Assembly (NCBI GenBank): GCA_021808105.1
Contig: JAKBCC010000019.1
Span: forward strand, 1 to 42,818
From: Planctomycetota bacterium
GTDB lineage: Bacteria > Planctomycetota > Phycisphaerae > WQYP01
DNA: 42,818 bases
Direction of reading: 5' to 3'
Positions 5,875-30,662 of the stretch are shown one piece after another (positions within the stretch are counted from its first letter, which is position 1; the number at the start of each line of letters is the position of its first letter). The position numbers and the translations under genes are program-made. The notes under the pieces were generated by a model. The model worked only from the letters and a program-made list of their open reading frames with translations, did no database searches and had not been told where the DNA came from.

Positions 5875-7347
5875 TTACCGCGCTACCCACGCCGGAGCGA
5901 ACGCTGTGGCCAACTGCTCAATGGGATTGTACGCCAGTAACGCCAAGCCATTTAAAATACCCGCAGCCGTAAGCAGCAATAACACGCCGCCGGCCAGGTG
6001 CCGCTTCTTTCGGCGTTTATCCGTTACGGCCAATGGCTGGTTTATTTCCGGCATACCCATCATCGCATAACTCCCGACGCGCATCACCGCACCGCTGCCC
6101 ATTAAAATCCCCAGCGCATTAATACCTAAAACCGCCAGACCCAGTACAGAGCCGGGGCCGGCAGCTGAAAACGACTCAATACGGGCAATGCTTCCCAGCG
6201 TCGGCGGAAGGCCGCCAAGCGACAATAGCGCCAGCAGAAAAAGCAGCGCATGCAAAGGCTTTACACGGGCAAAGGACGGCCACTGCTGATTTAATCCCAG
6301 GGATTTTCGGCCGATAATTCCAACCGATGAGCCTAATGCGATCCCGACGGTAAGCGCATACAACAGCACGCATCCAACCAGATCCGCAAGCGCCACATGC
6401 CTTAACGAAATCCCGGCGGCCAGCGTCACAAAGGTGCAGGCCATGAATATCCCGATGATGTTTCCTAAAATATCCGGGACCACAAACTGGAATAAAGCTT
6501 TAACCCCATAAGCGCCAACCGCCAAAGCACCCAGACAAATTACCGTCAGTGTGACCACGTTGGCGGCGGCGGGCGCGATGAAAATTAAGCGGTGCATAAT
6601 TCGCAGGTAGGGTGCTGCTGATCCAATGGCGGGTACCACCAGCAAAAACAAAACGACGGGGGCAGGCGCATCACCAGCGGCGCTACCGTACCACCAGATC
6701 AGCGGAAGGCTGCCGGCCCAGAATAACATGGGGGTCATAAATAAAATCACCAGCACGCCGCCCCACGCTGACGCACTGTGCGGCGTGGTGATAAGCGCTG
6801 GGCCAATCTGCAGGCCAAAACATCCCCTGGTCAGGGCCGCCAAGGCTAAAAGCATTACTAATAAGCTGGCCAGCAATGCCACGGTTGTAAACGCCAGGTG
6901 ATCGCCTGCTCTAAAGGTAGAGGGCATGGCCAGAGGAAGCGAAGCCAGCAGCATCCCCCCCGCCATAACCGGCAAACTGTGTAATGCCGGCATTAAGCTC
7001 CAGCCCACTGTACTTAGGGTAATCAGCAGGCAGAATCGCAAATCTCCCTGCCCGCTATAACTTCGCAAGCGCCGGGTCATAACCGCCGCCGTCGCGATAA
7101 GCAATATCACCGTCGTAAAAACCCACCCCATCGGATCCACAGCCAGCCAGGGCGGTACAGAGGCCGATTGCGCGGTGCCAAACGTCAGGGGATAAAACCG
7201 CAACTGCATTAAGCTTGCAATCACCATGCCCGTAAAACAGATGATGACACTGCCCGGGCGCGAAGCGCCAGAGCGCATCAGGGAGGTAAGTGCCAGAAAC
7301 CCAACGGTAACCAGCAGCACAATCTGCGGGGCCAATATGGCAAGCAC
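5875..7347 (-). CDS. nuoN: NuoN-like proton-antiporter subunit, divergent
   Basis: Polytopic inner-membrane protein of 490 residues (about 14 hydrophobic segments) placed last in an L-M-N order, which identifies it as the NuoN-like member of complex I. Family-like stretches are LAVDPMGWVF (residues 68-77), ASLPLAMP (135-142) and GDAPAPVVLFL (225-235). Residues needed for proton transfer in NuoN are not found by eye: the TM5 Glu of the E-L-x-S-L-P motif falls in GMLLASLPL with no acidic residue, and the TM7 Lys of F-K-x-x-x-x-P falls at Trp210 (FWAGSLP). The Lys of the KY motif is also missing. The GTG start at 7347 has no close ribosome site, so the N-terminus is uncertain. Either a divergent, weakly or non-pumping subunit, or a relative recruited to another ion-handling complex. 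Confidence 0.75.
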   Translation of the reverse strand: MLAILAPQIVLLVTVGFLALTSLMRSGASRPGSVIICFTGMVIASLMQLRFYPLTFGTAQSASVPPWLAVDPMGWVFTTVILLIATAAVMTRRLRSYSGQGDLRFCLLITLSTVGWSLMPALHSLPVMAGGMLLASLPLAMPSTFRAGDHLAFTTVALLASLLVMLLALAALTRGCFGLQIGPALITTPHSASAWGGVLVILFMTPMLFWAGSLPLIWWYGSAAGDAPAPVVLFLLVVPAIGSAAPYLRIMHRLIFIAPAAANVVTLTVICLGALAVGAYGVKALFQFVVPDILGNIIGIFMACTFVTLAAGISLRHVALADLVGCVLLYALTVGIALGSSVGIIGRKSLGLNQQWPSFARVKPLHALLFLLALLSLGGLPPTLGSIARIESFSAAGPGSVLGLAVLGINALGILMGSGAVMRVGSYAMMGMPEINQPLAVTDKRRKKRHLAGGVLLLLTAAGILNGLALLAYNPIEQLATAFAPAWVAR

Positions 7348-7448
7348 GTGGTATGTCAGGCGTGGCTCTCCTGTGCGATAGTTTCAATTGAGTTCATAGT
7401 TAAAATCCCAGTTTTATGTAATGGCAGCCTGCCGACGGCTCTCACCGC

Positions 7449-9026
7449 TCAATGCAGCACGCCGCTAAGCGCACGCGCCAAAGCCTTGAGCACCGGCGCA
7501 ACAGGATCCAGCACCAGAAGTGTCGGTAAAATACCTCCGGCAAGTAAGGCGATGATCAAAGGCAGAAACACCAGTCGCTCGCGCAGAGACAAGGCATGAA
7601 AATGCTGATGCTCCGGGCGCCCCGGTCCGAAAAACAGCCGCTCAATGGTCCACAACAGCACCGCCGCCATCAGCACCATGGCCAGACACATCGTCAACGC
7701 CGCCGGTAACAGGGCATTCCCCATCAGCACATGCTGTGTGACACTTGCCGATGCGGCACGGAACATTCCCAATATGGTCAGCAAGTCCCCGCCAAAGACC
7801 GCCAACCCCGGCAACGCCAGCGCCGACATAAAACCAATCATCGAAAAAATAAATAAATCCGGTATGACCTGGGCCAGGCCGCCCAGGCGCGGCAAGTCCC
7901 GATGGCTGGCCCGCACTTCAATAATATGACTGGTCCACAGCATGGCCATGGTCGTTACCGCCGCCCCCAGACTCAACAAAAATCCGCCATTAAGGCCCGT
8001 TATATTTCCCGCAGCAACCCCCAGAAGAATAAAGCCGCCCTGCCCGATCAGCCAGTAAGCAATGACGCGGCGGAAATCACTTTGCGCCAGGCCGCACAGG
8101 GCCGCATAGACCACGCCGGCAGCGCCCAAAATGGCCAGCGTATTGCGCCAGATCGCCAACTGCATGGGAAACAACGCCACCACAAACCGATCCAGGGCAT
8201 AACCGGACAGAAGAAACTGCGAACAGATAATCATCATCGCCGACGGAGCTGCGGATTCAGCCAGGGCGTCGGGCAACCAGAAATGTACCCCCGCCGTCCC
8301 CAGGCGAATTCCCAGCGCCAACATCAGCAGCCAGAACGCCGCCGTCGTCCACGGATTGGCCGGCCCTAAAGCCAGTCTTAATTGCGGATCCTGGGCGATA
8401 CGGGCAAAGCTTAGCGTGCCCTGGGTAAAGCCTCCAACACCGCGGGTAGAAAGACCTATTAACAAACACGCGCCCAACATCGCTGCTGAGCCGGTAATCC
8501 AGAACAATGCCAGTTTCAGAGCCGCCGGCCTTCGCCGCGCCCCTCCCCATACACCGATCAGCAGAAAACAGGGGAACAGTGAAAGTGTGGTAAGCAGATA
8601 AAACAGGAACAAATCCATGCTCGCTGCCGCCCCCACCACGCATCCTTCCAGCAGCAGCATGACCACATAATAAGCCTTCACCTGGGCATTGACTCCGTAG
8701 CTGGCCAGAATAGAGATCAGACTTATGCCGCAGATCAACAGGACTGTCACCATGGATAAGCCGTCCACACCCACATGGTAGTGAACATTCAAATCCCGAA
8801 ACCACATCACGTTTTGCTGCAGCTGCGCCCGGCCGCTGAATTGCGGCGACCAGTTAAACAGCCGCGCCGCCGCCAGAGCTATCAGCATATTGCCCGCGCT
8901 GACGGCCACAGCGCTGTAGCGAATCAGTCGCAGACGTCCGATGGGCAAAATGCCCAGAACAAATGCACCGATTAACGGCAGGACCATCAGCCACGTCAGA
9001 ATTGAACTGTAAAAAAATGGTTTCAA
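7449..9026 (-). CDS. nuoM: NuoM-like proton-antiporter subunit, divergent
   Basis: 525-residue membrane protein. The block DLFLFYLLTTLSLFP with LIGVWGGARRR, and VHFWLPDALAESAAPS, are unmistakable NuoM signatures, as is the N-terminal VGVDGLSM. Key residues differ from those required for pumping in E. coli NuoM: the TM5 Glu144 position is Thr147, Lys234 is Arg241, Lys265 is Leu272, the His in the central L-x-H-G motif is Ala, and Glu407 appears as Asp (FGGDLL). The TTG start at 9026 is preceded by AAAGG at a good distance. It sits 57 bases after nuoL and 101 before nuoN on the same strand and is likely co-transcribed. Family membership is secure; function as a proton pump is doubtful. Confidence 0.85.
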   Translation of the reverse strand: MKPFFYSSILTWLMVLPLIGAFVLGILPIGRLRLIRYSAVAVSAGNMLIALAAARLFNWSPQFSGRAQLQQNVMWFRDLNVHYHVGVDGLSMVTVLLICGISLISILASYGVNAQVKAYYVVMLLLEGCVVGAAASMDLFLFYLLTTLSLFPCFLLIGVWGGARRRPAALKLALFWITGSAAMLGACLLIGLSTRGVGGFTQGTLSFARIAQDPQLRLALGPANPWTTAAFWLLMLALGIRLGTAGVHFWLPDALAESAAPSAMMIICSQFLLSGYALDRFVVALFPMQLAIWRNTLAILGAAGVVYAALCGLAQSDFRRVIAYWLIGQGGFILLGVAAGNITGLNGGFLLSLGAAVTTMAMLWTSHIIEVRASHRDLPRLGGLAQVIPDLFIFSMIGFMSALALPGLAVFGGDLLTILGMFRAASASVTQHVLMGNALLPAALTMCLAMVLMAAVLLWTIERLFFGPGRPEHQHFHALSLRERLVFLPLIIALLAGGILPTLLVLDPVAPVLKALARALSGVLH

Positions 9027-9083
9027 GTCTACCTTTCAAACTTGCCGCAAAATTAACCTGTCCGCGATCCGCCGATATCGGGG

Positions 9084-11147
9084 TTACGCACCTATCCATG
9101 CCGCCAGCAACGCTATAACACTTACCATGGCCAGGGCCAGCAGGACGTAGACCACCGGCCGGTTGCGCTTCAATGTTCTTAGTTGTCCTGCGGCCGTCCC
9201 CGCCGGACGTTCCAGGCGTTCCCAGAAGGAAACATTTAATCCGGTTTCCGCAGCGGCTACAAGAATGCTTGCCAACCGGATCACAATGGCCAACGTCACC
9301 AGCAGCCATTCCACCACCCACCGATCCAGGAACGCCGCCGCCTTTCCAATGACCTGTGCGGGAAAGCCCAACAGGACAAAAAACAGATCCGCAAAATACA
9401 TATCGGCCGCCAGCCACCGATATACCAGGTTCGGTCCCGGGCGCCGGCGCAGCGTATCGGCCTTTTGCAATCCACCGGCGTAGACCAATGCCACCACCGC
9501 CAGCGCCGCAGGCCCCAGCCATTCCAGGGGCCGCAATAACATCCCGTCAAAACCTGCCGCAATGTGCCGCACATGTCGGACTCCCGGCATCCCAATGACA
9601 TGGGCAAATAAACCGCTTAGATCCGCAAACGGTTGCCCCGCAATAATGACTCCCACCAGTAGAATCAGCAAGGGAAATGTCTGCACCGCCAGTTCACCCT
9701 CTTCCAGCGGTTGGCCGCGGGCTTTGCCGGCAAAAATCAGATACCACCATCGGGCCAAGGCCAGTGCCGTCACATAGCACATGATCAGCGGCACCCAATA
9801 TAAGCACTTCCCGAATTCACCAATGCCCCAGCCGTAGGCATGAACATGCAGCAAACCCTGCCGCATAATTTCCGTCATTCCCGACAACCCCACGCCCGCG
9901 CCGCCCAGCACCAGCATGCCACTGACAATGGCTGTGATGGGCAGGCGTCGCCACACGCCGCCAAGCTGCGTTATATCACGCTGACCGTCGCTGGCGCGTA
10001 AAACCGTTCCAGCAGCCAGAAATAGTCCGCAATAAATCAGCGCGGTCAACAGCCCACCCAGCAACCCTGCCGCTTCGTTGCCGGAACCGAAAAATACAAA
10101 ATTCAACCCCGTCTGGGCAATTAACAGCCACGCCACCGTGCGTTTAATATCTTTCTGCACCAGAGCAATACATGATCCGCAAAATTGCGTTGTGGCCCCC
10201 ATCATCGCTACAGTCAACGCGGCGTTGAGATTCAGCAGCCCCGCGCAATGTGCCAAAAGCAACAGGCCGCCCCCGGCTATCAGCGTTCCAGAGAGCATGG
10301 CGTTTGCCCCCGATAAGCCGGTGATGGTTTCCGGCACCCAGGTATGCAGGGGAAACTGCCCGGATTTCGCCAGAGCCGCAGCCACCAGGCACATACCACC
10401 CAGACTCCGCCAGGTTAAACCCGGGAACCAGCCTTTCAGTGCGGCAATGGGTTGCTGCATTCCCCCGGCAACTCCAGACATCCGCGACGGGTCATGTCCA
10501 AAGAGAATCTGATGGTCCAATGGCGTTCCATGCAAAGCAAAAATGGTAATCCCGATCAGAAATAAAGCATCGGCAATCGCGTGCGGCAGCAAAATACGCC
10601 GGGCAATGGGCCGCTCGGGCGGTCGATTCGCCCACTGCAACATGCTGCAGGCCGTATAAATGGCCAGTTCCAGCAGCAGATACATCTGCATCACATTGAT
10701 CGATAATGCTGCCAAGGCCAGGAAAAATGCGGTCAGAGTGCCCAGCGCAAAATAATCCGGACGAATCGCCTTGTACTTGAGCATTCCCAGCGTGTGCAGT
10801 TGGGCTAACAGCACAATGAACAGAAACAACATGAAAAAAACCAGATTCAGCGATCCGCTGGAAATGCCCATCGCAATCATCGGTGTGCCGCCCGTGCCCG
10901 CGACGCCGGGCAGAGGTAACCAGGTAAATAAAAGACTGTGCGTCTGTGATTGCCCCGGTACTCCGGCATGCGCCAGGCGGCGGATAATGGCCGCCAGACC
11001 CGCCGCCAGGGCTGCCAGTAATGAAATAATGCTGATATAAGCGGCAGTGTGGGCCGATCGGCGCGCCAAGCCGGCCATAACGATAAAGCCACCCAGCAAA
11101 AAGCCGACCGCCAGCAACAAAATAGTATTCGCGTATATCAACCGCAA
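9084..11147 (-). CDS. nuoL: NuoL-like proton-antiporter subunit, partly divergent
   Basis: First gene of an isolated L-M-N group; 687 residues, the only one of the three long enough to include the C-terminal lateral helix and final TM segment of NuoL. It keeps the TM5 Glu160 (MYLLLELAIY), the TM7 Lys261 (ALAKSGQFPLHTWVPE) and the ALVQKDIKRTVAW block. It lacks the His of the A-L-I-H-A-A segment (Ser286), the H-x-x-x-H-A-x-F-K signature of TM10-11 (here GLLGGLLTALIYCGLF) and the Lys of S-K-D-E-I-L (Met424). The frame holds no ATG between the preceding stop and residue 24, so TTG at 11147 is the likely start, but no convincing ribosome site is present. A respiratory role would require the other nuo genes to lie elsewhere in the genome. 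Confidence 0.85.
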   Translation of the reverse strand: MRLIYANTILLLAVGFLLGGFIVMAGLARRSAHTAAYISIISLLAALAAGLAAIIRRLAHAGVPGQSQTHSLLFTWLPLPGVAGTGGTPMIAMGISSGSLNLVFFMLFLFIVLLAQLHTLGMLKYKAIRPDYFALGTLTAFFLALAALSINVMQMYLLLELAIYTACSMLQWANRPPERPIARRILLPHAIADALFLIGITIFALHGTPLDHQILFGHDPSRMSGVAGGMQQPIAALKGWFPGLTWRSLGGMCLVAAALAKSGQFPLHTWVPETITGLSGANAMLSGTLIAGGGLLLLAHCAGLLNLNAALTVAMMGATTQFCGSCIALVQKDIKRTVAWLLIAQTGLNFVFFGSGNEAAGLLGGLLTALIYCGLFLAAGTVLRASDGQRDITQLGGVWRRLPITAIVSGMLVLGGAGVGLSGMTEIMRQGLLHVHAYGWGIGEFGKCLYWVPLIMCYVTALALARWWYLIFAGKARGQPLEEGELAVQTFPLLILLVGVIIAGQPFADLSGLFAHVIGMPGVRHVRHIAAGFDGMLLRPLEWLGPAALAVVALVYAGGLQKADTLRRRPGPNLVYRWLAADMYFADLFFVLLGFPAQVIGKAAAFLDRWVVEWLLVTLAIVIRLASILVAAAETGLNVSFWERLERPAGTAAGQLRTLKRNRPVVYVLLALAMVSVIALLAAWIGA

Positions 11148-12373: not shown

Positions 12374-12393
12374 GTATCCGCGTAATCCGCGGT
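12374..12393. repeat. Short ATCCGCGTAATCCGCGG repeat
   Basis: Same core unit as at 18741-18779, 18929-18967 and both ends of 24834-25022. Next to it, 12353-12372 forms an 8-bp hairpin (AATCGGGC, loop cgca, GCCCGATT) without a T-run. Confidence 0.6.
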
Positions 12394-18729: not shown

Positions 18730-18779
18730 GGAAGGCCCGGCGTTTATCCGCGTAATCCGCGAAATCCGCGGTTTTTTTT
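18717..18779 (-). repeat. CCGCGGATT / GCGGATAAACG repeat, copy
   Basis: On the minus strand: a run of A, CCGCGGATTTCGCGG, ATTACGCGGATAAACG, then CGGGCCTTCCGTGTCGGCGG. The same order occurs at 18911-18967 and, shortened, at 12246-12310. The repeat runs into the possible start of the 18301-18729 gene. Confidence 0.75.
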
Positions 18780-18910: not shown

Positions 18911-18967
18911 CGGCGAATGAAAGCCCGTCGTTTATCCCCGTAATCCGCGTAATCCGCGGTTTTTCTT
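18911..18967 (-). repeat. CCGCGGATT / GGATAAACG repeat, second copy
   Basis: On the minus strand: AAAAACCGCGGATTACGCGG, ATTACGGGGATAAACGACGG, then GCTTTCATTCGCCGTCGCC. With the copy at 18717-18779 it brackets about 130 bases that contain no gene; the two copies are in direct orientation, 188 bases apart. Confidence 0.75.
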
Positions 18968-21372: not shown

Positions 21373-21630
21373 CGCATTCACCGGTCACGCATGTTGTCAG
21401 CTCAATGCTGCAGTGTTGAGTTCTCCGCGAAATGTGATTTCATAACAAGGTGCTCTTGGATACGTCGCAATCGGCACAGCACCCGCCGCCCCCAGTGCGC
21501 GAGAAAAAGGTGTCAGGTACCTTTTTCAAATAAAAAGGTACCTGACACCTTTTTTATGGCACCATTTTTCCGCATTCAGCCGCCACGTGCGTCCTTCGCT
21601 CAATGCGGCAGCATTGAGTTCGCGGCGGAA
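21373..21630. repeat. Pair of ~59-nt direct repeats flanking a GGTGTCAGGTACC palindrome
   Basis: Copy A (21373-21432) and copy B (21571-21630) both run CGCATTCA ... GCTCAATGC, GCAG, TTGAGTTC ... GCG-AA with scattered differences. Copy B contains the perfect hairpin CTCAATGC-ggca-GCATTGAG and overlaps the last codons and stop of the PaaK-like gene. Copy A looks like a diverged duplicate of that gene end. The palindrome at 21504-21554 sits between them. Confidence 0.65.
21504..21554. repeat. Inverted pair of a 23-nt GGTGTCAGGTACC unit
   Basis: The left arm at 21504-21526 (AAAAAGGTGTCAGGTACC plus TTTTT) pairs perfectly with the right arm at 21532-21554 around a 5-base loop. The A-run and T-run flanks would allow it to end transcription in both directions. 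The same unit, with arms in the opposite order, is at 30366-30412. Confidence 0.85.
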
Positions 21631-22946
21631 ATTCGCCGATCAATAAATCGGGAGGGTTTACGAGGGTTGGCAGCGCTTTGCAGTTGGCGGATGGTGGTGC
21701 TGCTGGAAAAGATAATTTTTGGCTGCACTTTTAACAGCGCCCGCACGGTTAACGCCACGCGTTCTCGGATGGCGGAACTGTTTCTTGCCAGGCATACATG
21801 AAGTTCTACACGATCACTTAAATCATGCTCCCGCTGCGCGATAATGGCGTAGTCCCGCACATCGCCAATCCCGTTCAGGCAGTCGGCAATCGCCGAGGGA
21901 AACAAACTCGAACCGCGCACCTTCAGCAACTGCTGCTTCCGGCCTACGATCGGGCCTAAGCGCGGAGTCGTGCGACCACAGGGACATGGATCGGTGTACA
22001 GGGCGGCAATATCGCCGGTGCAAAAGCGTACCAGCGGCATACCCTCCACGCCCAGCGGCGTAACGACTACTTCACCTGGTATGCCGGACGGGACCGGCTC
22101 CCCTTGTTCATTTATTATCTCCACTACCGCCAGCTCTGGATTCAAATGCCCCCCCACACACAATGGCCCCTCGGCGAAGCTGCAGCAGGTTTCGGTACAC
22201 GCATACGTGCTAAGCAGGGGCACCCGCAGATTATCCGCCAGGCGCTGCGCCAGGGCATTGGGACATAGCGCCAGAGTGCGCAAAGGCTCTCCAATACCAA
22301 TGACCGCCTGAATTTTCGGCGCATGGTTGTCGCAACACACCGCACCGCCGGCCCCCGCCAGCAGCGACGGCACGGTGATGACAAACGTCCTGCTTCCGGG
22401 CTGCAGAAGCGATTGCAGCACGTCGATCTGCGCACAATACGCAGCCCCCGCGCGGATGCACGCCGCTCCTAATTTCTGCGCTCCCAGCCAGTACGCCAAA
22501 CCCGCAACAAACATCCGGTCCAGTGCCAGCGCCAGAATCAGCGTGTCGCCCCGGTTTAGCCCGGCAATGTTCAAAGCAACTGCCTCATTTTCCGCCAGGC
22601 GCTGCAAATCCGCTTCCGTCAGGGGGACACGCAGAGGCTTACCCATAGTACCGGACGTCGTCACCCACTCGCGCACATGTTGATTCGCGCAAGCAAATGC
22701 CGCCTCGCCCGCTGCGGCCAACTGATCTTTATACGTCAGCGGAAATTCGACAAGATGGTCCAGCGATTTTATAGTTTTAGCCAACCGCCCGGCATAGAAG
22801 GCCGACTTGCCCGCGTGGTTAATATGCCCGCGCAGGGCCTTGATCTGCATGGCCTGCCAGCGTTTTACCGGCCAGAATAAATGCTTGCCGACCTGACTCG
22901 CATGGCTTCTGCCTACTGTATCACCTGATAGGCGTTTATTTATCAC
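21600..22946 (-). CDS. PaaK-like adenylating enzyme (AMP-dependent ligase)
   Basis: About 448 residues of the phenylacetate-CoA ligase/F390 synthetase branch of the ANL superfamily; it would activate an aromatic or other carboxylate as an acyl-AMP for transfer to CoA or a carrier. The nucleotide loop is TTSGTMGKPLRVP; later blocks are STYACTETCCSFAEG, VRFCTGDIAAL, the branch-typical DPCPCGRTTPRLG and GRKQQLLKVRGSSLFPSAI. I chose GTG 22946, which has AGGA six bases before it; GTG 22967 is also in frame. It begins just after the exporter stop (22971) and is the last gene of the LolA-exporter group. The final residues (SAANSMLPH) are encoded by a repeated hairpin sequence. The substrate is unknown; the context suggests a precursor of the exported lipid or pigment. 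Confidence 0.85.
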   Translation of the reverse strand: MINKRLSGDTVGRSHASQVGKHLFWPVKRWQAMQIKALRGHINHAGKSAFYAGRLAKTIKSLDHLVEFPLTYKDQLAAAGEAAFACANQHVREWVTTSGTMGKPLRVPLTEADLQRLAENEAVALNIAGLNRGDTLILALALDRMFVAGLAYWLGAQKLGAACIRAGAAYCAQIDVLQSLLQPGSRTFVITVPSLLAGAGGAVCCDNHAPKIQAVIGIGEPLRTLALCPNALAQRLADNLRVPLLSTYACTETCCSFAEGPLCVGGHLNPELAVVEIINEQGEPVPSGIPGEVVVTPLGVEGMPLVRFCTGDIAALYTDPCPCGRTTPRLGPIVGRKQQLLKVRGSSLFPSAIADCLNGIGDVRDYAIIAQREHDLSDRVELHVCLARNSSAIRERVALTVRALLKVQPKIIFSSSTTIRQLQSAANPRKPSRFIDRRISAANSMLPH

Positions 22947-22970
22947 AGAGTGTCCTGAATAGTACACGTG

Positions 22971-25900
22971 TCATTGTGCATCAAAGTTTATAGTCAACAG
23001 CAGGCAATGGCCAGCATCCCAGATCAGTATTTCGTGCGGAACATGGCGGTCATGATAATGACGATATTGGATTTCGATGTTCTCATGCGAATTCCGGATA
23101 CGGCAGACGCGCAACGTTCCAGCCGGCCCGGCAAATAAATACCGTGTATGATCACGCGTTCCAGAAAGCAGATGTTTGCGGCGGTGAAAGTTTTTTAACG
23201 GCAACGCCGCTGCCGCCGGCAGACGCAGCGCTGATGCGACATCCATTGCAATATGCCGCGCGAGAGCTTTGGGAAACGCTGCGGAAGTGTGCAGCACCTG
23301 GCTCGCGTTGCCTGTAACACGCACATCGCACAACAGGGTTCCAAATTCCGACGCACAGGTTACGCGCAGCGTGCCCGGGGATTTACCCTTTATTCTTCCG
23401 ATCATGCTTACGCGATGGCCGTGCCAGTTTAACGCCGCAAAAAATTGCCGATCCCATTGTCGGGGGAATTTGGCCAGGGCATGGCGCGCGGCAGCGGTGG
23501 TTGGCGGAGGAGCCATCGGAGGGCGATACGCCTGCGGCGGCGGCACACTGCAACACCCTCCCAGCAGGCCTACCAGTAGAATCGCCATGGCCAGCAGTAC
23601 GATGGTTCGCCAGACATTTAATACCATCAGGTAAATCCGCCTCTTCGTCGGTGCTGTCGGTGGATTAAGCACAATTCTAACCAGCGGCCCTACCACAAAA
23701 TAACTCGCCAGATAGCCGCCCAGAATTCCCGCGGTCAATGTTATTCCAATCCAATGCAGCACCGGATGACCTGCCAGAATCATAGCCGCCGTTCCCAGAA
23801 TGGTCGTGGCAGCGCACAGAAATGTCGCGGAATTGCGATTTTGTATCATGGCACCGCCGGGCCCCAGAGACGGATCACTGGACGCATAAATGCCATAATC
23901 CACCGCAACGCCCATGGTGAAAAGTATCGGCACCAGACAAAGAAGGTTTAAGCCGCCGCCCCACCACTGCGCTACACCCAGCAACCAGATAAAGCCAATC
24001 GCCAGGGAAAGTGCGGCGATAGCCGCAACGTCCAGCCGCCGAAAATAGATCCACATGGGAATTAAAATAAACAGTATCACCCAGGGGAACAAGCGCTTGG
24101 CTTCTAACTGAGCATGATGCGATGCATTCAGATAGAGCACCTGCCCGCAAATGATGGAAACGCCGGGAACATCATGCCGCACGTCCGCGGCCCATCGGGT
24201 GGCCAGCGCCGGAGGCAGCGCTGCATTAAGCTGCACGGTCGAAGAAATGGAAATGTCATGCGGGCCAATAGCGACCACGCCGGGAAACAGCGTTGCCGGT
24301 GATTCCTGTAACCGCTGCAACGCCGATGCGGTACCCAATGGCGATTGCCAGGACTTGAGTGCGGAATCAAAAGCACCGGCACGCAAGCCATTCGCGATAG
24401 CAGCTTCCGCCAGAAGCGCCTGAGCGTGAACCATCTGTTCAGGCGTAAAAAACGCCCGCCATGCGGCTAACCGCCTTTGCGCGGTTTGTGTATCGGGAAG
24501 AATTGCCGATGCGGTGGTGTATCCCGCAATCAATCGCTTCGCTTGCAGCACCTTAAGCAAATGATCTAACGTGTGCAGTTGAGCTAGCGCCCGATCCGCG
24601 GACACTTGATGAATCGTAATCACCCCTGATTGCCGCAAGTGCCCCCATACGGCCGAAAATTTGGCTTCGTCATGCTTGAGTGCCACCGAGGAACCATCCA
24701 AGGATTGCCCGTTGGCGGTATAATCCACGGCGATCGCCCGGCTTCCCAGCCACAGCGTCATGAGAATAAATGCCGATGTTGCGATGAGCTTGAGCAATCC
24801 GGGATGGAACCATTGATTCAAGCTGCGCGACAAGGACCGCGGATTTCGCGGATCATGCGGATTACCAGAGGGCGTTGCCCGGTTGTTCGGGCCATTAGCC
24901 GCCACATCCGCCCCTTCGGATTCCGGTGCGATCTCATCATTTAACGATGCGTTCCGCGCTTTGGTTGGCAAGCAATCACCGCGAATTCTTTTATCCGCGC
25001 TATCCGCGTAATCCGCGGTCCGGCAAACCCAAGGCCCAAGATACGCCGGTAAAACTATAAATGTCACCAGCCAGATACACCCGGTGGCGCTGGCAATAAA
25101 GAGTCCCAACGTCTGTAACCCCGTGGCGGAACTCTCGGCCAACGCGCCGTAACCCGTCATGCTGGTACATACACTCATGGATATGGGTCCAACTAAATCC
25201 CTTGCGGATAAAGCGGGCATATCGGTTTGATACTGGCCCGCCTGTTTTACGCGCCGCTGTAATGCCGCAATAAGTTGAATGCCGTAATCGGTCGTCGAGC
25301 CGCAGAGTAACCCATCAAATCCCAGCACGATTAACGGAATATGCAGGTGGAATAAGCCCGCTATGCCCATGGCCGCACCCAGACCAACTATCGGCGGAAT
25401 CATGCACAGAACCACCGAACCCATGCGACGGAAATACCAGGCGATAACCCCGGCCACCAGCAGCGATCCGACAATTGAAATCATTTTCAAATCATGCTTC
25501 ACCAACCGCTGATTTTCTACAAAATTGCGATAAGGTCCCACGATCCACACGCGCAAAGCGGGCATGTGTTTTTCTACTGATGCAATTGCACTGCGAATCG
25601 CGGTGAGCATTTTCTCAGAAGCGGCGACATTTTCCGGCCTGAAAGGCGGAACCAGAATCATCATCGCATGTCGGCCATTGGCGCTAACCAGCAGTGGACC
25701 GGAAAAATGCGCCCCCGCCCCTGCATGAACGGATTTAAATTGTGAAACCAGCAATTGCCGCATATCCAGGGGATCAGCCTGCAATTGTGCGGCAACAATC
25801 TGCCCGGCGGGTCCCGCCATTTTCTGCACTTGCCTGTGAAAATAGTGATCCAGCCACCGTGCTGACAACCGCCGGCGAAGGGTATTAAATTGCTGATGCG

Positions 25901-26342
25901 AAAGCAGAATGGGAGCGCTATTCTGTAAAGCCACTTGTGCCTGAACCTGCCGCGATGCCGGTGTTCCGTACCAGAGACTTGAAAAGGCGTGCGTGTTTTG
26001 CAGCGCCTGGGCCAAGAGGCGCACGGCCACACTTAAATTGCCCTTTTTCCCCGCAGCAAAATGCACATCCAGCCGCATGGCATCCGCCAAGCCATTACGA
26101 TCCTCGGACAGCCGCACATCATGGATCGCTGCGCTGTGTGCCGAAAAAAAACTCAACAGACTGGTCTGCCACACAATATTCCGCGATGCGGTAAACAGCA
26201 GAACGCCAAGCACCAGCAGCACCACGGTTAAGCCAATGCGTTGCCTCTGCAATCGCCCATACCACCAGATCATCCAACGCGTGAGTTGATCGGGCTTCGG
26301 GGCGTTAGCGCCCGCAATGCTTGGGCTATCGGGTGGATTCAT
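22971..26342 (-). CDS. RND/MMPL exporter fused to a DUF3261-type lipoprotein
   Basis: 1123-residue protein. Residues 1-905 are an RND/MMPL exporter of the aryl-polyene-cluster type: TM1 near 36-53, a periplasmic loop, a first TM bundle with GFDGLLCGSTTDYGIQL (about 338-354), a linker, a second loop and a second bundle with FTMGVAVDYGIYASSDP (about 804-820). Residues 906-1123 read as a separate lipoprotein: a helix ending in the lipobox GLLGGC, then a DUF3261-like domain of about 190 residues. The two parts are in frame without a stop. An ATG at 23627 inside CTGATGG suggests that an ancestral TGA/ATG overlap was fused by a small indel. Residues about 441-503 derive from a repeat element. ATG 26342 overlaps the stop of the LolA-like gene (ATGA). 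It probably moves an acyl or aromatic lipid to the outer membrane. Confidence 0.82.
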   Translation of the reverse strand: MNPPDSPSIAGANAPKPDQLTRWMIWWYGRLQRQRIGLTVVLLVLGVLLFTASRNIVWQTSLLSFFSAHSAAIHDVRLSEDRNGLADAMRLDVHFAAGKKGNLSVAVRLLAQALQNTHAFSSLWYGTPASRQVQAQVALQNSAPILLSHQQFNTLRRRLSARWLDHYFHRQVQKMAGPAGQIVAAQLQADPLDMRQLLVSQFKSVHAGAGAHFSGPLLVSANGRHAMMILVPPFRPENVAASEKMLTAIRSAIASVEKHMPALRVWIVGPYRNFVENQRLVKHDLKMISIVGSLLVAGVIAWYFRRMGSVVLCMIPPIVGLGAAMGIAGLFHLHIPLIVLGFDGLLCGSTTDYGIQLIAALQRRVKQAGQYQTDMPALSARDLVGPISMSVCTSMTGYGALAESSATGLQTLGLFIASATGCIWLVTFIVLPAYLGPWVCRTADYADSADKRIRGDCLPTKARNASLNDEIAPESEGADVAANGPNNRATPSGNPHDPRNPRSLSRSLNQWFHPGLLKLIATSAFILMTLWLGSRAIAVDYTANGQSLDGSSVALKHDEAKFSAVWGHLRQSGVITIHQVSADRALAQLHTLDHLLKVLQAKRLIAGYTTASAILPDTQTAQRRLAAWRAFFTPEQMVHAQALLAEAAIANGLRAGAFDSALKSWQSPLGTASALQRLQESPATLFPGVVAIGPHDISISSTVQLNAALPPALATRWAADVRHDVPGVSIICGQVLYLNASHHAQLEAKRLFPWVILFILIPMWIYFRRLDVAAIAALSLAIGFIWLLGVAQWWGGGLNLLCLVPILFTMGVAVDYGIYASSDPSLGPGGAMIQNRNSATFLCAATTILGTAAMILAGHPVLHWIGITLTAGILGGYLASYFVVGPLVRIVLNPPTAPTKRRIYLMVLNVWRTIVLLAMAILLVGLLGGCCSVPPPQAYRPPMAPPPTTAAARHALAKFPRQWDRQFFAALNWHGHRVSMIGRIKGKSPGTLRVTCASEFGTLLCDVRVTGNASQVLHTSAAFPKALARHIAMDVASALRLPAAAALPLKNFHRRKHLLSGTRDHTRYLFAGPAGTLRVCRIRNSHENIEIQYRHYHDRHVPHEILIWDAGHCLLLTINFDAQ
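24834..25022. mobile_element. MITE-like element inserted in frame in the exporter gene
   Basis: 189 bases bounded by imperfect 31-bp terminal inverted repeats: GGACCGCGGATTTCGCGG plus ATCATGCGGATTA on the left; TTATCCGCGCTATCCGCG plus TAATCCGCGGTCC on the right. It carries no gene of its own. The length is an exact multiple of three (63 codons) and keeps the host frame open. The translated ends read NPHDPRNPRS and TADYADSADK, the typical products of this CCGCGGATTACG unit in protein sequences. It fills the junction between the exporter's two RND halves. No target-site duplication is obvious. Confidence 0.6.
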
Positions 26343-27163
26343 GGCGGACCCACCGGGGCAAAACTTTTCGGTGCCAGTCGCGGATTCAGCCGGGTATGGC
26401 GCAACCAGAACATGCTTTGATCGCCATTTTTTGCGACAATACGAATATATTTTAATTGTTCAGGGCCAGCCTGATGTCCGACCGTAACCTTTTGGGTTGA
26501 GGCCGCAAAGCCAAGTTGAATCTCACGAATGGCCTCTTGGAGCAATCCGCCCAGCGGACGCAACGTAAACAGTTCAAGGTCGGGCGGTGTTTTTTTATGG
26601 TTTACGGACACGACTCCGGCCGGAGCATCTTTTGGCACCGGACGCGGCGCCTTCTGGAAACGGACCTGATACTGCCTGCTGACGTTACCGACGTTCCCCA
26701 GCGACCACGCCGCGAATTGCTGCATCATAATTCCAATCGCCGGCTGCGAGTCCACTGAACTGGTGCTCCAATGCGCATTGGATTCATTACGCATGTCAAG
26801 ATGGCGTCCGTTAAGAATATAGCAGGAGCGATACGGCCAAATCGTTGCAAAGCGAACCCGACTGGGTCGGGCAATGGTAATAATTCCCTTGCTGAAAAAA
26901 GGCTTCCGAAGCACCTGCAACTTCTTTTCACATAAAAAGGCGGACTGAATTGCTTGAACCGATTTCATTCCCGCAAGTACGTTCACCAGTTGTTTCCGTG
27001 CGGCACCGCCATTGGCAGCCCCGGCATGGGCCAGGGGTGGCAGCACTGACAGCCCGGCCAGAATACAAACCAGAAAAGCCGAGATCTGAAAATTGAATCC
27101 GCGCGGCCGGCCAATGCCTTCAGAGCAATCTGCGATGGCCGTGCAATCTTGCCGAGATTTCAT
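26339..27163 (-). CDS. LolA-like outer-membrane lipoprotein carrier
   Basis: Periplasmic carrier-type protein of the LolA-like group found in aryl-polyene and related clusters, where it is thought to carry a lipid product or lipoprotein across the periplasm. A signal peptide runs FQISAFLVCILAGLSVLPP to LAHAG. The mature part has the LolA pattern: MKSVQAIQSAFLCEKKL, GIITIARPSRVRFATIWPY, later LQEAIREIQLG and IRIVAKNGDQSMFWLRHTRLNP. The start is uncertain: ATG 27163 gives a normal signal peptide; ATG 27193 and ATG 27262 are in frame upstream without good ribosome sites. The stop overlaps the exporter ATG by four bases, so the pair is surely coupled. It is divergent from the DNA polymerase III delta gene. 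Confidence 0.8.
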   Translation of the reverse strand: MKSRQDCTAIADCSEGIGRPRGFNFQISAFLVCILAGLSVLPPLAHAGAANGGAARKQLVNVLAGMKSVQAIQSAFLCEKKLQVLRKPFFSKGIITIARPSRVRFATIWPYRSCYILNGRHLDMRNESNAHWSTSSVDSQPAIGIMMQQFAAWSLGNVGNVSRQYQVRFQKAPRPVPKDAPAGVVSVNHKKTPPDLELFTLRPLGGLLQEAIREIQLGFAASTQKVTVGHQAGPEQLKYIRIVAKNGDQSMFWLRHTRLNPRLAPKSFAPVGPP

Positions 27164-27279
27164 TAAAGCCACAACTTTAACCACTTTGATCATGATCCTG
27201 ATAATACCATATAAACATAGCGGCGGCAGCGCCAGGAATGCGGTTGGCATTTGTGCCAGCATACAATTAACATACTCTC

Positions 27280-30322: not shown

Positions 30323-30358
30323 AGCCCCGCACAGCCCCCGCCGTGCGGGGCTTTTTTT
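30323..30358 (+). terminator. Rho-independent terminator after the PEP-CTERM gene
   Basis: A 10-bp perfect stem, AGCCCCGCAC (30323-30332) with GTGCGGGGCT (30343-30352), 10-base loop, and a run of seven T ending at 30358. Confidence 0.93.
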
Positions 30359-30365
30359 CAAAACA

Positions 30366-30412
30366 AAGGTACCTGACACCTTTTCCGAAAAAAAAGGTGT
30401 CAGGTACCTTTT
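30366..30412. repeat. Second inverted pair of the GGTGTCAGGTACC unit
   Basis: The left arm AAAGGTACCTGACACCTTTT (30366-30385) and right arm AAAAGGTGTCAGGTACCTTT (30393-30412) pair perfectly over 20 bp with a 7-base loop, followed by more T. Same unit as 21504-21554 with arm order reversed. It lies directly behind the terminator at 30323. The following bases to 30662 hold no gene. Confidence 0.85.
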
Positions 30413-30662
30413 TTTCGAGTTGGGCGATTTTTTTGCCGCATTCGGGGGTGCCGGGAAGGAGGCATCAGGGGAGGCGCTGCTTGGAGATGCGCCCTTGCGA
30501 TGTATTTTCCGCGAGGCGGTGTGGAACGGAAATATTGCGGTGCGCAGCGACATCTGCGGCTAACACTCTGCGGCTAACACTCATTTGAATTAGTTGGTTC
30601 AATATTTGATAATAGCCTCAACGGCGCTGTGTAGCGCAGGGCCGGTCATGCGGGGACTTTTT

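Follow-up and report, generated by a model that had tools for sequence, protein, structure and literature searches.

A LolA, MMPL-LolB and ligase operon as the probable export module of a dispersed aryl-polyene/flexirubin-like pathway in an uncultured planctomycete

Three bacterial systems are the closest known to the locus analysed here. In E. coli, ApeL, ApeM and ApeN are LolA-like, RND and DUF3261/LolB-like proteins, respectively, and the aryl-polyene starter is 4-hydroxybenzoate supplied by UbiC, so that an ammonia lyase is not needed (PMC8253772). Flexirubins are polyene-resorcinol esters, and their starter-activating ligase, FlxY, has been characterised as a 4-coumarate-CoA ligase (PMC3992019). 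The pigment of Azoarcus sp. BH72 depends on two unlinked arc loci, both experimentally proven to be essential, with a chorismatase supplying the starter (PMC3949708). Contiguity is therefore not essential for this class of pathway.

We analysed a 42,818-nucleotide contig of a planctomycete MAG (hereafter the window, in its whole length), which carries a minus-strand operon of three ORFs for LolA, MMPL and an AMP-forming ligase. We consider it probable (roughly 0.77) that this operon activates the starter and delivers the product to the outer membrane for a type II PKS pathway of the aryl-polyene/flexirubin-like, yellow-pigment kind, whose genes are spread over three or more loci. As judged from sequence, the candidate pathway shares with the class its KS/half-size CLF pairs, its paired ApeI- and ApeP/FabZ-type dehydratases with an ACP, and its LolA, MMPL/RND and DUF3261/LolB-like set. 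It departs from the class in having neither a single cluster nor an identified aryl starter enzyme.

The likeness to the ape pathway of E. coli and Xenorhabdus doucetiae extends over the exporter set, comprising LolA (ApeL), RND/MMPL (ApeM) and DUF3261-LolB (ApeN), as well as a KS with a half-size CLF (ApeO/ApeC), ApeI- and ApeP-like dehydratases, an ACP and a PlsC acyltransferase (PMC8253772, PMC8358021). Unlike that single cluster, the planctomycete pathway occupies three unlinked loci, has two KS/CLF pairs, fuses LolB to the pump, lacks UbiC, and uses a PaaK/FlxY-type ligase in place of ApeH, the acyl-ACP synthetase of E. coli. With the flx cluster of Bacteroidota (Chitinophaga pinensis, Flavobacterium) it shares a ligase nearest to FlxY, LolA2/LolB2 similarity and several KSs (PMC3992019), whereas the tyrosine ammonia lyase FlxA is absent, a DarB-type KAS III is unseen in most of the family, the MMPL protein is not fused to PlsC, and scores fall under the NCBIfam equivalog cut-offs. 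The arcuflavin/xanthomonadin (arc/xan) system of Azoarcus is likewise divided over unlinked loci, one with a halogenase, a KS and an N-terminal KS domain and the other with exporter, LolA and ligase (PMC3949708). However, Azoarcus has a XanB2-type chorismatase, of which we found no counterpart in the planctomycete, and its exporter/LolA locus also carries an acyltransferase, a dehydratase and an ACP.

An operon with predicted roles in lipid export and acid activation

The window is contig C208 of a 216-contig MAG of 3.86 Mb that is 94.6% complete; genome-wide statements below rest on family and protein searches of this same MAG. The features of the operon, with their predicted functions, are as follows.

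26339..27163, minus strand: LolA-like periplasmic carrier, start ATG at 27163 (26339-27262 in the mechanical ORF list)
22971-26342, minus strand: full MMPL ORF, 1123 aa
23628..26342, minus strand: aa 1-905 of the MMPL ORF, MMPL/RND-type inner-membrane exporter part (Pfam MMPL, orthologue neighbourhood)
22971..23627, minus strand: aa 906-1123 of the MMPL ORF, LolB-like (DUF3261/LolB2-type) lipoprotein domain, in-frame fusion
21600..22967, minus strand: FlxY/PaaK-like AMP-forming aryl acid-CoA ligase, 455 aa (best NCBIfam match FlxY)

The end of LolA overlaps the start of MMPL by four bases (ATGA), and three bases separate the MMPL stop from the first ligase start; the three genes are probably cotranscribed. 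The original prediction had described four genes transcribed together with such an overlap. The overlap and the probable cotranscription stand, but the DUF3261-type part is the C-terminus of the MMPL protein and there is no fourth ORF. Promoter and terminator scans did no better than on shuffled sequence. A search of relatives, which had been proposed at the outset, found the operon kept across the family, so the arrangement is not a matter of chance; MMPL orthologues adjoin LolA and/or the ligase in 17 family genomes.

Family assignments bore out the predicted aryl-polyene-type LolA/MMPL/LolB-like parts and ligase, through Pfam, NCBIfam and a LolB fold considered below. The LolA ORF, with a signal peptide around LAHA-GA, matched Pfam LolA at 27.9 bits (cut-off 23.6; 2.3e-6) and NCBIfam LolA2_flexi at 30.4 bits, under the cut-off of 125. 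The MMPL ORF matched Pfam MMPL at 34.9 bits (cut-off 20.5; 1.1e-8). For the ligase, Pfam AMP-binding gave 41.1 bits (cut-off 29.9), and the best NCBIfam match was FlxY (NF053551) at 350.9 bits, under the equivalog cut-off of 520, compared with 108.6 for PaaK. Its ATP-binding motif TSGT and C-terminal R436-K437 are invariant in 12 orthologues. The nearest named relatives are from MAGs labelled Planctomycetota or Phycisphaerales, and farther matches are mostly from Bacteroidota, with some from Verrucomicrobia. Being closest to FlxY, the ligase is itself a biosynthetic gene.

Several features of the surroundings were recorded alongside. A perfect palindrome around GGTGTCAGGTACC occurs in the window at 21504-21554 and 30353-30418, with further copies in the rest of the genome, among them those at L011 145-188 (directly after the CLF gene of contig C150), L013 10866-10911 and L207 11027-11044; it is probably a dispersed REP-like element. 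Positions 6001-10000 of the window have a strong AT skew (0.25-0.28), a negative GC skew and several minus-strand ORFs, and are unlike the rest. In congeners a gene of about 1650 aa, TPR/peptidase-C39-like, adjoins LolA (L056 12724-17697, L057 1605-6599, L058 12259-17319); it separates LolA from holA in L056 and L057, but no such gene lies between the two in the window.

Candidate synthesis modules on other contigs

The original prediction held that biosynthetic genes were missing. Within the window, ketosynthase and lyase searches were indeed empty, but two synthesis modules lie elsewhere in the genome. Searched for ketosynthases, this genome gave eight matches, none inside the window. On contig C19, an LpxL-type acyltransferase, an ApeI-like dehydratase, an ACP, a FabZ/ApeP-like dehydratase, a PlsC acyltransferase, a KS and a half-size CLF form one module, and on contig C150 a FAD halogenase-like enzyme, a KS and a half-size CLF form another. 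Both KSs retain Cys-His-His, and both CLFs are without the Cys and without most of the second thiolase half; ApeC is likewise about half a KS (PMC8358021). Profiles of the CLFs reached FabF-type KSs and, weakly, ApeO among PDB sequences, and did not reach the ApeC chain. The C19 ApeI-like dehydratase scored 5.9e-5 in Pfam, under cut-off, with PDB matches to 3esi and ApeI (6qsr_A), the profile of its FabZ/ApeP-like partner retrieved solved ApeP (6qsr_B) at 4e-10 among FabZs, and the ACP matched PF00550. Within these modules we saw no ketoreductase, thioesterase or methyltransferase dedicated to them. KS genes on C57, C110 and C176 were considered as pathway members and are read as lying outside it, since no polyene-type partners adjoin them.

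Neither the C19 nor the C150 locus has LolA, MMPL or LolB genes. The original prediction had considered a full polyene cluster with its own exporter elsewhere in the genome; none was found, nor was a second LolA/MMPL set. No other MMPL match adjoins a LolA, and the remaining matches to the MMPL family are one MMPL without a neighbouring LolA, AcrB/CusA-type pumps and SecDF.

The source of the starter is missing from this inventory. Searches found aromatic ammonia lyases neither in the window, nor in this genome, nor in any of the 28 family genomes; UbiC and chorismatase turned up neither in this genome nor in the 18 of the 28 family genomes that were searched. An ammonia lyase had been expected as a normal neighbour, yet it is not obligatory, given that E. 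coli uses UbiC and Azoarcus a chorismatase (PMC8253772, PMC3949708). A search of this genome for a DarB-type KAS III gave FabH and a type III PKS and nothing else.

From the enzyme families, a route can be proposed in which the FlxY-like ligase would activate an aromatic acid, the two KS/half-size CLF pairs, with the ApeI- and FabZ/ApeP-like dehydratases, the ACP and a shared FabG reductase, would build a polyene acid, and the PlsC- and LpxL-type acyltransferases would join this acid to a lipid. By analogy with the E. coli ApeL/ApeM/ApeN model, the MMPL pump would lift the lipid from the inner membrane, LolA would ferry it through the periplasm, and its insertion into the outer membrane would fall to the LolB-like domain. 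The outer-membrane destination that had been predicted agrees with that model.

Linkage in relatives and alternative explanations

In this genome the candidate pathway genes lie on three separate contigs and not in one cluster, and congeners G002 and G005 repeat this layout of three loci, each with flanking sequence. With both the window operon and the C19 module lying inside their contigs, and with G002 and G005 alike, the separation is no contig-edge effect. Of the 28 family genomes, 25 have both the window-type ligase and the C19-type CLF and the other three have neither, a pattern with a chance of 1/3276 if the two were independent, although phylogeny and the incompleteness of two of the three co-absent genomes weaken this figure. 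Some relatives link the loci directly: two family members place export genes next to parts of the C19 module, with KS, CLF and PlsC adjoining LolB and ligase in G016 (contig C17) and CLF and LpxL adjoining the LolA, MMPL and ligase genes in G013 (contig C68), and the outgroup G028 has KS, a CLF-like gene, a FabZ-like dehydratase, GT2, MMPL-PlsC and ligase together (contig C24). In G017, the C150-type KS lies beside ApeI and LpxL (contig C13). As a separate observation, G015 (L072), 92% complete, is without a ligase orthologue, a C19-type CLF or a strong C150-type KS match, and retains a LolB-like ORF and, as a weak match, LolA.

The original prediction suggested export of a different, ligase-activated lipid that is not a polyene, which would leave the KS/CLF modules with another purpose. 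The separation of synthesis genes from the operon in this genus, the failure to find any known enzyme for an aryl starter in this genome and the scores under the flexirubin family cut-offs all fit that idea. We nevertheless regard it as unlikely and find it unsupported, in view of the joint presence and absence of ligase and CLF among the 28 family genomes, the linkage seen in G013 and G016 and, on a single contig, in outgroup G028, and the polyene modules that have no exporter of their own. Another proposal would have the operon handle the product of a genus-specific type III PKS locus, such as an alkylresorcinol or aryl lipid. Contig C37 (L207 6431-10767) carries, in one run, a chalcone-synthase-like type III PKS, a FAD enzyme, a methyltransferase and a chorismate-binding enzyme; the same type of run is found in G002 (L208), similarly weak matches of KAS III type, most of them 368-aa frames, are seen in the rest of the genus except G003, and flexirubins being polyene-resorcinol esters (PMC3992019) also speaks for the proposal. 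No linkage was seen, however, and the export operon and the KS/CLF modules are found in other genera of the family as well, yet in nearly all of these a KAS III search gives a FabH-type match only; we hold the proposal to be very improbable.

The dispersal itself might be artefactual, with one contiguous canonical cluster broken up by MAG fragmentation or binning, as the 216 contigs and the position of the C150 module at a contig edge could suggest. Against this, more than 15 kb without ketosynthases lies on both sides of the window operon, the C19 module is inside its contig, and G002 and G005 show the same three flanked loci; we consider an artefact very improbable. The reading as a dispersed aryl-polyene/flexirubin-like pathway would place an envelope lipid of aryl-polyene type in a family of uncultured Phycisphaerae-type planctomycetes. 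With the pathway split and the usual starter enzymes lacking, cluster-based genome mining would see an orphan exporter only.

A pump fused to its LolB-like partner

The most unusual part of the system is the fusion of pump and LolB. The C-terminal part of the MMPL ORF, about 218 aa with no separate ORF, is by its modelled structure a LolB-like lipoprotein domain, probably of DUF3261/LolB2 type. DUF3261 (PF11659) matched three of 16 relatives (best 3.6e-4), and the window protein alone was unmatched; the LolB2_flexi profile matched three family members, and the window protein reached E 0.016 and 14.9 bits against a cut-off of 60. An AlphaFold2 model of the domain (pLDDT 88.8) has a LolB-type half-barrel fold, and its top structural matches were all LolB, with Z 11.5-12.4 (8cm1, Z 12.4; 1iwm, Z 12.3). 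The original assignment of this part to the DUF3261 type is probably right, given the matches in relatives and the fold, with the window protein itself unmatched by DUF3261.

The in-frame fusion is present in five full-length sequences of the genus and is confined to this genus; in sister genera the LolB-like lipoprotein has its own gene. Within the fused protein, a strongly hydrophobic, signal-peptide-like internal helix ends in LLGGC, and the lipobox Cys930 is invariant. We considered whether LolB has an internal start of its own and is translated separately. The window gene has an in-frame ATG at aa 906 where congeners have ACG or CTG, and the genus sequences have no conserved internal start codon or ribosome site in the fusion; because this ATG is not conserved, separate translation is rejected as the main mode. 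The genus may join the pump of the inner membrane and the lipid receptor of the outer membrane in one polypeptide, from which signal peptidase II would free mature LolB by way of the helix and lipobox Cys, or in which LolB would stay tethered to the inner membrane and load LolA, a proposal that we hold tentatively and at somewhat less than even odds. Either fate, if true, would be an unusual design for a lipid-transfer relay.

Other genera of the family (g4-g7) carry a different C-terminal domain on the MMPL protein, the AAT/C45 acyltransferase-like PF03417, in place of LolB.

L066 1305-5585: MMPL with PF03417 in sister genera (also L065, L067, L068 and L069)

The window genome has no PF03417 match, and in ligase loci of Bacteroidota and Verrucomicrobia the domain is a stand-alone gene. 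Natural pump-LolB and pump-acyltransferase-like fusions offer material for testing how polyene lipids are delivered to the outer membrane.

The pump gene of the window also has an in-frame insertion of 198 bp (24822-25019, aa 442-507), common to congener G002 and absent from L103. Its ends match short dispersed repeats at 12375-12393, 18731-18779 and 18919-18967 of the window, and also in L009 and L011, and the insertion looks to be a repeat element that was taken up as a linker.
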